Positions 50,701 to 59,700 of a stretch of 64,000 nt of DNA are shown piece after piece. The DNA comes from Haliclystus octoradiatus (taxonomy: Eukaryota > Cnidaria > Staurozoa > Stauromedusae > Haliclystidae), in contig OU744449.1 of NCBI GenBank assembly GCA_916610825.1, positions 12,531,520-12,595,519 of the forward strand, read 5' to 3'. How positions within the stretch are numbered: position 1 is the stretch's first letter; each line of letters starts with the position of its first letter. Both the position numbers and the translations under genes were made by a program. The notes beneath the pieces are model-generated. The model worked only from the letters and a program-made list of their open reading frames with translations. It did not search any database and was not told the origin of the DNA.

Positions 50701-53700
50701 AAGTCACAAAATCATAATCATAATAATAATAATAATATAATAATATACTGATAATAATATATAATAGAATATAGCATATAGCTACAAATAGTCATAATGG
50801 TATGCTAATTGCTATAAACATATGACAAAAATGTTTAACAAAACGTTATAAGTTTGAAGGTAGATATGCACCGGTATTTCTATTTTTGGACAAACAATAA
50901 AGGCAATGATTTTAAGAAGTGCTGGTAATTTAATATCATTCGAGCATTCGACTTGTTAACTCTCACGTGTTAATTTTTTGCTTCAAAAAATGGGGACACA
51001 GAATACAGATTCAGATAGCAGATCTTGAATGAGGAAGGATTGGTGAAAAGGATTTTTTAATCTAGACACACCGTATAAGTGGAGACATTTAATGTAGAAT
51101 ACGCTATTTTTAATCATTCACTTTTTCAAAACTCGGAAAGACAGCAAGAATGACAAGAGGACTTACTATAAGAAAAAATATAAAAAATCGTAGCTCCCTT
51201 CGCGAGAAATTAAATTTTCTTGCTGGCATGAATCGAGTTATAAAGAAATACATGATTTACGACATACAGGGGCTTTCAGTATTTGGAAAATCTTTTTTTT
51301 TTGTCAAAAAGGTTCACACACATGTCACAAATGGTGGTGATGCGTATGTTAAACAGTGAATGTATTAGCTTAAAGCTAATTGATACATGAGATGCTGGCC
51401 ATCAGAGAGCGGCACCCAACATTTAATGTGCAAACTGTCTCTGTGAAGTCCAGATTATTTTGGGGTTAAATGGAATTTTACCGAGGTTAAACCATCATCT
51501 TTAAGTTGCGTACATTGTGAGCTATTACTTTGTAGGTTAGAGGAAGGGGCCTGGTATTGAGGCTCGGGTTCACAGGAGGGGGTAGGTATTACGCAGTGGG
51601 TCATCTAATCTACTTTACAGTTTTCTTGGGCGTTTTATTCATTCCTTGCCTTGCCAGCTTGCTGCTTAGTTCATTTCAGCCAACTTCCGCAAGTTGTAAA
51701 TTTATTTTGATGCTGCTTTAATTGAGGTCATATTTACGGTTATTTGGTTAATTAGCTATTTGGTTATTTTTGGTTACTTGGTTATTGATTAGTTCTCGCC
51801 TGTGCCGTTGTTGTTTGCGTTTTTATCCACTTACTATTAGCCACAATGTCCCACACAACACGGAATAGCCAAGCATCAAATTTACCTGTAACAGAGGAGA
51901 ATCAAGGCCAGAATGCCATATCTAACAATCCATCAACTGGAAATCAATCGCATTTGATGCTATCGCCGGCTGATAGGCAAGCTATTGTGCAAGACATGGC
52001 AAAAGCGCTTTACGACCTAACATCACAAAATGCTATGGAATCTCACCCAGCAAGATCAGCACAGACTCAGAACACGTCGACAACACCAGCTGCCGAAGGT
52101 ATGTCTGTCCCGTCATTTATTTCTAGTTTCGCATTGCCTTCTGCCTCTACTGACTCATTTCCACCGCTACCAACTTCAGTGTCCGCACCTCCATTTGTTC
52201 CTGTTAATGCATCTACGTCACCTCTGTCTTCGCCAACATTGTTTGCTAATTCAACTGGCCCTCAACCGTTCTTAATCGGTCCTGGGTTTTCACCAGTACC
52301 AGCTAAGATTGTTGCTAACATTATCAGTGGCAAATTTATCGAGTTGGGGGATCTGCTGGCTAACGACATTGTCAATACAGAAGGTGAAGCTCAGCTTTTT
52401 GCTAATGGCCAACTCCTATTGACTCCTTCTACAAGGCGTCAACATCGCCGCATTGACGACATTTTATCTTGGCTGGAAGCCTTCACGATTTATTCAATTG
52501 TTCTCACAAGTTATCACCCACAGCGTTGGCAGGATCTCTCGCTGTATAAAATGTTCATAATTCGCACCTATCGTCAATTTCATGGCTATGCGTGGTTATC
52601 GTACAACCGCGCTTATCGAGAACAAGCAGCAGTATCAAACTCAACCGATTGGTCCATACTTGACAGCCCGTTGTATAGTTACCATACTGCTACAGCAGGG
52701 TCTCGCTTCCAAACGCCTCGGCTGTCCACAAGAGAGGGGAATTCAGCTCAGCACCGTACTCCTTCATCAAGCAACCATATTTGCATGTCTTGGAACTCCG
52801 GGCGTTGTATTATGCCCAATAACTGTATATATCGCCACCAGTGTTCTTTTTGTGGAGAACAACATCGGTTCGTAGAATGTTGTAAACCAAATAAGGTTAA
52901 TTATTCAAAACGCCCCGCTCCTGCTGCCTTCGGTGGCGGGAACACGAAGAGGCGCTTTCCCTAGAAGTCTTTGTATTCAGTACGAAATGCACTTTAGATT
53001 ATATTCGCTATTCGCTAATCTTTGAGTTTATTCCTGTATAAATGTCGTTAGTTGTATGCAAGACCCGATGATCGGTCGATAATTTCACTTTGTAGCATAT
53101 TTCTCCACTTAGTTTTAATAACTTTGTTAATTTTACTCTTGCTGTTAAATAATCAATTATGCCTACTATAGTCTCATTTTTGTGTTAACCGACTTGAAGT
53201 GCTGTTTATTTCATTACTGTAAACTTGATGTTACGCTACTAAGGCTTGTTTAACCTATGACATTTTCATTCAAAGTTTCATTAAAGGGGCAAGATTGACC
53301 GGCGACCGCTGCGAGCACAAGTTGAATTTATGCTTAGCGTAATTCAACCGTCTCGCTTTGAAACTATTGTTCTACGCAGGCCTAATCTGTTATAAATCCA
53401 TGTCAACAATGTACATTGTGTTATGAACAATAAACATGCACGTGATCCGAAGTGCGTAGCGCCTGCCGGTCATTTTTGCTCCTTTAATCTACTGCATCTG
53501 CTGCATGTTTTGCTGTATCATTCATAATCCCCTCGTAGTTCATTTCTGTTTCGATAAAGAACTCAAAATAAGGTCTCATTGTCTCTTGCTGTAAATAGCA
53601 ATTAATAAAAAAAAAAAATACATAAATAAAAATCTGTTAATTTCAATCCGACAGATAAATGATTGCCCGATTAGTGTCAGCATGCACACCAACATAAAAT

Positions 53701-56700: not shown

Positions 56701-59700
56701 ACCTCTATGCAATTTGGAGTCTATGATACGATATCTTACGTTGCGGGGTCATCATGCAGGACCCTTGTTTTGCTTTTCCTCTGGCCAGCCGCTAACTAGA
56801 ACTCATTTGGCAAATTCGTTGCAAAAAATATTTTCCAATGCTCAGATCCCTGGTAGTTTCAATACACACAGCTTCCGAATTGGCGCAGCTACTGTTGCCG
56901 CTCGCAACGGAGTTCCTGATCACCTCATTAAGGCTCTTGGCCGCTGGAACAGCAATGCCTACACTTTGTATACTCGCACTTCTCCAGGTTCGTTGGCTCA
57001 GGTTTCAAAGTTCCTTTCTTAGGTATGTCATTTATTTCATTTTATATTTTGTGTAAGATTTTATTTAAGACTCAGATAGGTGCTTGGTCTGTTTTGGTGG
57101 GAGGTCAGGCTTCCCTGTCCCTCCTCCAAGCACCTTGGGCTTGGAGGTATTGTTTTGGTGGTGTCAGGTCTGCCTTTGTTCTGCCGGCCTTTTTAATTAT
57201 TGCCGCCTGCCACCTCCCACCAACCAAGCACCTGGGCCAAAATATTGTTGTATTATTAAGATGAATGGTTTAATTGGGGTTAAATGGAATTTTACCGAGG
57301 TTAAACCATCATCTTTAAGTTGCGTACATTGTGAGCTATTACTTTGTAGGTTAGAGGAAGGGGCCTGGTATTGAGGCTCGGGTTCACAGGAGGGGGTAGG
57401 TATTACGCAGTGGGTCATCTAATCTACTTTACAGTTTTCTTGGGCGTTTTATTCATTCCTTGCCTTGCCAGCTTGCTGCTTAGTTCATTTCAGCCAACTT
57501 CCGCAAGTTGTAAATTTATTTTGATGCTGCTTTAATTGAGGTCATATTTACGGTTATAATGCTATGCCAATGATGATTGTGGTGTGGGCTGCTGTTTTTG
57601 ATGCTGGTCAAATATGCTTGTTGATTGCTGTGAATTAGGATTTGTGTTGCTGCTATGACATGCTAATGCCTGGGGCGTTCCACTATCGTTTGTGTTGTTG
57701 TTGTTGTTGCTATGCTATGCTATATTAATGCTTTGGGCCATGCCGCTATCGTTGGTGTTGTTGTTGTGGCTGAGCTATGCTATATTATTGCTTTGGGTCA
57801 TGCCGCTATCATTAATGTTATTGTTGTTGCTATGCTATGCTATGATAATGCTTTGGGCCATGCTGCTATTGTTGGTGTTGTTGTTGTTACTGAGCTATGC
57901 TATATTAATGCTTTGGGTCTTGCCGCTATCATTGATGTTATTGTTGTTGCTATGCTATGCTATGATAATGCTTTGGGCCATGCCGCTATTGTTGGTGTTG
58001 TTGTTGTTGCTGAGCTATGCTATATTAATGCTTTGGGTCTTGCTGCTATCATTGATGTTATTGTTGTTGCTATGCTATGCTATGATAATGCTTTGGGCCA
58101 TGCTGCTGTCGTTGGTGTTGTTGTTGTTGCTATGCTATGCTAATGCTTGGGCCGTGCTGCTGCCATTGAGGTGTTGTTGTTGCTATGCTAGGCTATGCTA
58201 TTGACGACGGAGTTTGGGCTGCTTTGTTTATTGCTGGTTAAATGTGGAACAATTTTTCTCCCACCCTCCTCCCATTCAAAGTTATGGTTGGTAAGTATGA
58301 CTAGGAATTCCACTGACTTAGCAGTGTGACTGGAGCTTGGTTGGTGGTGTCAGGTCTGCCTTTGTTCTGCCGGCCTTTTTAATTATTGCCGCCTGCCACC
58401 TCCCACCAACCAAGCACCTGGGCCAAAATATTGTTGTATTATTAAGATGAATGGTTTAACTCATAATTCAAATTCAAATTATAGTTGTAATTGATTGTGT
58501 TTAATTCCTCGTATAGAATTTCATTGTATTTGTAATACAATACATTACATAAATTATATTTAGACATAGCTTCATGGTGCACAAGGGGACACTCCAGGGG
58601 GTAAACTCAAAGGCAAATGCTGTGCTTCAATTACTCAATATCAGTAAAAATCACTCTCAAAATGAAAAGTTCGGTTAACTTATTACCTGAGTCGGGTCGA
58701 CTTCTCCTTGAATGATATTCAATATTGAAATATAGCAATGGTTAAGTTTTCGATCCCTTGGTGTTGCTACCATCATGTTTTTAGGCTAAAATGAAAAAGA
58801 AAACATACGAAGAATTGGCATTATAAGTATATGTATAAAGTGGATTGTAAAACACATAGGGTCCCTAACCAAACAAACCTATGTTCTTACAAGTTATTGT
58901 AAATTCATCATCGAAAATAAGTCTTATTATCATCAAGTAGTGAACTGTAAACACTCAATGACATTTACGATTAATTATTCAATATTTTCTTGATTTTTAT
59001 TCGAATTACAGTTATAGCTTCTTTTGGAACTATGACTCTAATTGATTTTTCTCTAACTTAATTTAATATGGAAACTCAATATAATTTAATACCCAGTATA
59101 TCCCTGTCAGTAGAAACATAATGTCTTAGGGTCTCTTGAGCAAACACCTAAGCCAACTAATCTCAATTCTCAAGTGCATAGGGTGTTTAGTAAAGCTCAC
59201 CTGCAAAAGTCGACGCATCACATCTAAAACGGTCGTCTTTCTTATACTTGTTGTCTAATGAAAATAAATACACTTGATTACCATTTTGTCTATTGCTATA
59301 AGTATAAGTTGAATAAGTGCATAAGTGCTATACAGTACAAATAAAAAATTATTATTATTAAAGCTGTAACATGAAATTTTAATCCAATATGGAATGTAGG
59401 CCTAAGGTTAGCTGCCACTTCTACTTTTGAAAAGCTCGAATTTCGGAATTTTGATTAAACTTTAAATTACCAATTTCAATGTATCGGGCAAAGTTTTTGG
59501 CAATTAACGAATTACTGTACAGAGATGAGACTTCAAATTTCAAAAATGGTTTGAAGTCAAAGATATCTAGATTATTCAATAACTAGAGTTTCAAAGATGG
59601 CCATAGTCTGAAATTCACCTATAAATTTGACAATCATACAACATTATGTCCGAGCGAATACTGTCAGGCCGCCCTGGAATATATAGCAATACCTTTTGAT

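Follow-up and report, generated by a model that had tools for sequence, protein, structure and literature searches.

Ngaro retrotransposons are recognized by their structure (PMC4157794, PMC9210276, PMC8547959): split direct repeats in the order A1-ORFs-B1A2B2, open reading frames (ORFs) for gag, for a reverse transcriptase (RT) with RNase H, and for a tyrosine recombinase (YR), and neither a methyltransferase nor a target duplication. Both the Ngaro type and isolated AB units are already known, for instance from Cafeteria (PMC8547959). For DIRS1, integration is described as recombination of a 3-bp junction sequence with an identical genomic sequence, and it leaves no target duplication (PMC3266345). 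For YR retrotransposons, the balance of Gag and Pol and the choice of target by the circle are known mainly from models. Here, we analyze a stretch of 64,000 nucleotides (nt) from the staurozoan Haliclystus octoradiatus (contig OU744449.1, C5:12531520-12595519; hereafter, the window), which holds a 7-kb element at positions 51460-58459. A first-pass annotation, made from the letters alone, had described a young and structurally complete Ngaro-like element that was inserted from a circle into a gamma-tubulin intron. We find that the element is a young, complete member of a multi-copy family of Ngaro-type YR retrotransposons. We also think it very likely that YR recombines a circle junction with the target, that Gag is made from unspliced RNA, and that RT/RNase H is made from spliced RNA. 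The intron was absent from the annotation, as were a nested transposon, a tandem array, and solo copies.

Structure of the element and its copies

The window element is complete, with the layout A1-gag-RT/RNase H-YR-B1A2-spacer-B2 (Table 1). The annotation had claimed equal-length repeat pairs without differences and an exact B1-A2 contact, and the base-by-base comparison agrees: A1 matches A2 at 284/284 positions, B1 matches B2 at 119/119, and no nucleotide lies between the end of B1 (57273) and the start of A2 (57274). The ends of the repeats are unambiguous because the first base outside each repeat differs. Across the A and B pairs there are 0 differences at 403 sites, with a 95% upper bound of about 0.74%. 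The repeat anatomy, exact ends, and open frames also bear out the claim of structural completeness.

Searches for other copies of the 7-kb unit covered an assembly of 261,861,806 bases in 33 contigs and found both near-identical long copies and solos. The A repeat has at least 43 matches (best 40 of 68 candidates) and the B repeat has at least 40 (best 40 of 359 candidates). These counts are lower bounds because only part of the candidates was scored. One A match, C4:29536115, is not among the fetched loci. Five of the fetched loci are complete long copies (the window copy, L009, L010, L011, and L013). The layout is not due to chance: all five share it, and B1 touches A2 in each of them. In the order just given, A1 and A2 have 0, 0, 1, 3, and 6 mismatches (plus 2 gap positions in L013), while B1 and B2 have 0, 1, 2, 1, and 2. 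The window copy is at least 99% identical to L009-L011 over most coding segments, and these near-identical copies sit on other chromosomes. There are also several related families, with RT identities of 57-65% (at least 84 RT matches; best 81 of 763 candidates). We found no relatives in viral contigs.

The fetched loci include 23 complete A-spacer-B solos, as compared to the 5 complete long copies. Their total lengths vary, several by about 120 nt. The converse form is seen at L016/L017, which kept A1, the ORFs, and B but lack A2-B2, and possibly at L050, where the ORF-side B end is followed by flanking sequence (only its B end is visible). The likely origin of the solos is recombination between A1 and A2 after insertion, and the solo AB repeats of Cafeteria were published as recombination remnants (PMC8547959). 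Alternatively, YR could resolve the circle at its two B|A junctions, and the solos would be integrated mini-circles. Indeed, such a circle would have the same junction twice, copies that have the ORFs and B without A2-B2 do exist, and the ends and the empty site of the solos are exact. However, recombination between the 284-nt A repeats yields the same product more simply, and the ratio of 23 complete solos to 2 reciprocal forms fits with the A homology being longer than the B homology. We consider it unlikely that the solos are mini-circles, and we prefer recombination between the A repeats.

Other loci are partial or interrupted (L012, L014/L015, L018, L020, L046-L049, and L052). At L014/L015, the TTAA at the B1|A2 junction is the precise site of an insert of 1841 nt (L014 8515 to L015 1354). 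We considered whether a circle had integrated into an attachment (att) site, but the insert is really an element with terminal inverted repeats and with TTAA on both sides. At L011 (353-1000), the long copy has inserted immediately next to an older relative in inverted orientation, at the A end of the latter.

Integration into a preferred target

Both ends are readable for 26 insertions (5 long and 21 solo; L037 and L045, which have altered B ends, and the partial loci were left out). We saw no excess of target duplication in this set: the flanks of 20 of the 26 insertions share 0 bases, as compared to 18.1 in shuffled pairings, and the suffix/prefix matches between flanks are no longer than shuffled pairings give. 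The insertions do favor a target, about TTTWW|Y, that resembles the circle core TTTAA|TT. T predominates at target positions −5, −4, and −3 (19, 19, and 23 of 26), and 22 of the 26 insertions have C or T at position +1. Relative to the B end of the circle (TTTAA), the left flanks match at 84 of 130 positions (135 control registers: mean 43.7, maximum 57). If the 12-nt junction is considered, the match is 124 (control registers: mean 82.5, maximum 105). The right flanks are little like TTGGG (33/130).

We also searched for empty sites by joining the flanks of 10 copies (best 40 of 1578 candidates scored). Among the matches listed, sites that span the join were found for four copies (L010, L013, L019, and L022). 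Base by base, the paralogous empty sites are seamless at the join for two long copies, L010 (4/4 loci) and L013 (4/4), and for one solo, L022 (6/6). Therefore, for these three copies at least, the TTTWW that precedes A1 belongs to the target. Two results weigh against seamless insertion as the rule. First, 6 of the 10 copies, including the window copy, had no spanning match among the best 40 of the 1578 candidates. Second, the sole empty-site locus for L019, a solo, differs at the join, with 3 nt missing. On the whole, the target motif and the seamless empty sites are what recombination by YR of a circle junction with a core-like target predicts, and they strengthen the annotated proposal of circle integration. 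The annotation's other statement about insertion, that target duplication is absent, is upheld by the 26 flank pairs and by the empty sites of other copies.

One further locus, L031, is a sister-family copy within tandem satellite DNA, and its A1 starts 58 nt late relative to A2. It has a 58-nt gap between B1 and A2. Its flanks overlap in short repeats and are not interpretable.

A predicted conserved intron between gag and RT

In the window element, a predicted phase-1 intron takes in the gap that separates gag from RT. In each of six families, the best donor in this region lies inside gag and reads GAAG|GTATGT or nearly so. It splits a glycine codon after the first base in 6/6 families, it falls in one column of the gag alignment in 5/6, and in none of the six does another site reach its score in the stretch that begins 60 nt upstream and runs to the acceptor. 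(As a control, Markov-shuffled sequence holds 0.2-0.44 sites of at least 9.2 bits per region.) A phase-compatible acceptor, T/C-AG|C, lies directly before the RT frame in 7/7 families. (We disregard the small probability that this comparison yields, because it treats the families as independent.) When the non-coding intron sequence was compared with that of four sister families, neither blastn nor tblastn gave a match; RT/RNase H, by contrast, matches at 64-67% DNA identity.

Two natural copies have the junction that this intron predicts. With the natural L013 protein as the query, two loci run from the N-terminal part of Gag (GagN) into RT (best 150 of 167 candidates). These loci, L079 and L080, belong to the L032 family and read CCAGAAG^CAACCACTGG, which is exactly the join of the L032 donor and acceptor that had been predicted earlier. 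A genome pattern scan for the L032 junction found L079 and L080 only (control 0), and L079 begins at the A1 end of an element. Because two natural copies carry the exact predicted exon junction, splicing of the L032-family intron is shown through its reverse-transcribed product. Given the homology of the splice sites, the intron of the window family is presumably spliced as well, and it is very probable that spliced RNA is the source of RT in such elements. As most genomic copies retain the intron, the usual template would be the unspliced RNA.

Several observations weigh against this account. The L062 donor lies in another column of the gag alignment, and no donor was found for L063 in the 2.4 kb upstream. 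L079 and L080 have an insertion in common relative to L032, so they may represent one event, and each of them has an RT deletion that lacks GT-AG borders. Searches for the exact spliced junction in the window, L029, and L031 families found none. In L013, which belongs to the window family, GagN and RT are fused in frame, but L013 may be a plain deletion because 21 nt around the junction are gone along with the intron. It could be argued from the lack of an exact junction copy in the window family and from the 21-nt discrepancy of L013 that there is no functional intron: RT would be translated from its own RNA (with an internal promoter) or by re-initiation, and the intron-less copies would be chance deletions. 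This seems quite improbable because the same donor and compatible acceptors recur across families that share no non-coding sequence. Also, the two L032-family copies join exactly at the predicted GT-AG borders, unlike their RT deletions.

RT frames of 716-803 amino acids (aa) in the L029 family were another candidate for gag-RT fusions, but in the copies that we fetched these are TTA repeats that are read through. Just upstream of the RT acceptor, L053-L060 (L029 family) have long TTA/TTG-type repeats, which read as poly-Leu and whose length varies by copy.

Coding frames and expression of YR

The annotation had listed open gag, RT/RNase H, and YR frames with catalytic residues in place, and the ORFs, the Pfam matches, and the residues conserved between families agree. 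The RT/RNase H frame is open from stop to stop (54288-56090), and RVT_1 matches the element at 4.3e-11. YLDD and the YR residues (R, HxxR, and the C-terminal YTR) are common to the families. The gag of the window copy is 34-46% identical to sister-family gags when aligned. The YR frame is full length in the window copy, L009, L010, L011, and L013. From the acceptor to its end, RT/RNase H is open in the window copy, L009, L011, and L013, broken in L010, and cut in L012.

Two points weigh against our reading of the element. First, both the RNase H and the YR of the window copy are below the Pfam cut-offs (RVT_3: 5.2e-4, 20.4 bits, cut-off 21.6; Phage_integrase: 1.8e-5, 25 bits, cut-off 27.1). 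Of the sister-family YRs, L031 is above the latter cut-off (29.6 bits) and L030 is below it (22). Second, when seven copies are compared, the window copy included, an uninterrupted gag frame up to the stop (codon 373) is present only in the window copy and L012; there is an early stop in L009, L010, L011, and L016, and the gag of L013 is fused to RT. A structure prediction for YR (mean predicted local distance difference test score, or pLDDT, of 43.6) was not used.

The YR frame is the −1 frame relative to RT and begins 94 nt ahead of the RT stop; it may be reached by a frameshift or by a second acceptor. The YR of fungal Ngaro elements can be frameshifted (PMC3783388). On the other hand, TTGGCAG|G is present at the start of the YR frame in 5/5 families, in the phase of the donor. 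This candidate acceptor is only suggestive because its sequence also codes for a Trp-Gln that is conserved in ORF2. In the L032 family, the one family searched, we found no copy in which the gag donor is joined to the YR acceptor. A tentative idea, which we think is somewhat doubtful, is alternative splicing as in retroviruses, from one gag donor to the RT and YR acceptors. The three RNAs would encode Gag, GagN-RT/RNase H, and GagN-YR, and the shared N-terminus would carry all three into one particle.

Age of the insertion and the host gene

The predicted intron contains a miniature inverted-repeat transposable element (MITE; 53281-53487) that matches a TTAA-flanked, high-copy repeat. At the corresponding point, five other copies have one uninterrupted TTAA, and L009 has the insert too. 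L009 has exact element ends, and its flanks differ from those of the window copy. As L009 has the same MITE at another site, a MITE-bearing element was copied to a second site. This shared MITE and the near-identical copies on other chromosomes support the annotated claim of recent activity of the family; similarly, recent insertion of the window copy is supported by its open frames and by repeat pairs without differences. That gene conversion, rather than youth, made these pairs identical is very unlikely given the open frames, the identity to L009-L011, and the MITE in common with L009, even though A1 and A2 of L011 have the same unusual first base, for which conversion and copying during reverse transcription are both possible sources.

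The location in a gamma-tubulin intron is confirmed by minus-strand exons on both sides of the element. When these exon pieces are joined, their best matches are gamma-tubulin 1 chains (about 1e-87). Because the gene is on the minus strand, the element is antisense to it. The neighboring gamma-tubulin intron contains a solo A-spacer-B unit of a second Ngaro-type family (49489-50333; L029 family, 98.8-100% over two stretches), and only about 15 nt lie between the end of this unit and the 5' splice site of exon 50349-50423.

Table 1. Features of the window element, with splice donors of related families and the host intron.
Feature	Position	Strand	Description
A1 terminal repeat	51460..51743	+	284 nt; identical to A2; 5' end TTGGGG common to other copies
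gag ORF	51846..52964	+	372 aa; C-terminal Cys/His motifs; no Pfam family
Predicted phase-1 intron	52099..54474	+	2376 nt; donor GAAG|GTATGT, acceptor TTATTACAG|CACTT
Splice donors by family	window 52099; L029 1783; L030 2495; L031 2498 (reverse); L032 2009; L062 164 (reverse)		
Nested MITE	53281..53487	.	TTAA on both sides; imperfect terminal inverted repeats; in non-coding part of intron
Predicted second exon	54475..56090	+	Reverse transcriptase (YLDD at 55152) and RNase H
Tyrosine recombinase ORF	55997..57022 (stop-to-stop)	+	−1 frame; 94-nt overlap with RT ORF; no ATG near start
Candidate second acceptor	56003|56004	+	TTGGCAG|GC at YR frame start
B1 repeat	57155..57273	+	119 nt; identical to B2
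A2 repeat	57274..57557	+	Directly adjoins B1; putative template of circle junction TTTAA|TTGGGG
Tandem array	57693..58143	+	60-nt unit, 120-nt higher period; in A2-B2 spacer
B2 terminal repeat	58341..58459	+	Identical to B1; 3' end GGTTTAA common to other copies
Host gamma-tubulin intron	50424..58686	-	Holds the element; from exon pieces and splice sites

Proposed life cycle

We propose that the element's RT copies the genomic RNA and that the internal B1A2 unit allows both ends to be restored in a circular form, with TTTAA|TTGGGG at its junction. YR would then recombine this junction with a core-like chromosomal site, about ATTTWW|Y, with no bases gained or lost. Gag would be made from the unspliced RNA. 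RT/RNase H would be made from RNA that lacks the intron, so that the first 84 codons of gag are joined to the RT frame. A conserved intron with a natural spliced junction is a direct test of the balance between Gag and Pol. Also, the family is a clean system for studying how circles choose their targets: its copies are near-identical and have exact ends, a target motif is seen, and there are empty sites at paralogous loci.

Comparison with known systems

By its structure, the window element appears to be of the Ngaro type: it has A1 ... B1A2 ... B2 split direct repeats with the internal repeats downstream of YR, it has an RT with RNase H and a YR, and it lacks a target site duplication. PF05869, which we take to be the methyltransferase domain of DIRS elements, has no match in the whole genome (the E. 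coli control was detected), so the element does not have a PAT-like methyltransferase. Positions 50800-59200 of the window contain no pair of inverted repeats that reaches 20 nt, and hence no DIRS1-like inverted terminal repeats. PAT and VIPER have the same split direct repeats (PMC4157794, PMC6681497), which alone do not separate VIPER from Ngaro (PMC6681497), and a C. briggsae lineage of that kind was reported (PMC4157794), but the absence of a Dam-type match and the position of the internal repeats, which is as described for Ngaro (PMC4157794), make it highly improbable that the element is PAT-like or VIPER-like, or that it descends from a PAT whose methyltransferase was lost.

DIRS1-like elements are also YR retrotransposons that integrate without target duplication (PMC3266345), but they have inverted terminal repeats and a methyltransferase, and we found neither (in 50800-59200 and in the genome search for Dam, respectively). 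Within the Ngaro type, ORFs usually do not overlap (PMC3266345), whereas ORF2 and ORF3 overlap by 94 nt here, and amphibian Ngaro elements have a hydrolase ORF (PMC9210276), which we did not see in this element. The Cafeteria elements share the split direct repeats, the isolated AB units, and the existence of copies without ORF1 (PMC8547959). The passages of that paper that we consulted mention no intron in Ngaro, and we add a target motif and empty sites. In the literature that we searched, we did not find a conserved gag-RT intron in Ngaro or DIRS elements, and the word "intron" is absent from PMC9210276, PMC3783388, and PMC3266345.

A further difference from described Ngaro elements is that gag and RT are set apart by a long spacer, which is part of the predicted intron. 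For an RT that is made from spliced RNA, the Pol mRNA of foamy viruses is a closer likeness than the long terminal repeat (LTR) retrotransposon BARE1. In BARE1, as proposed here, the Gag and Pol products are separated by splicing (PMC3735527). However, the spliced RNA of BARE is reported to encode only Gag (PMC3735527), whereas in our element the spliced RNA would encode RT and the unspliced RNA would encode Gag.

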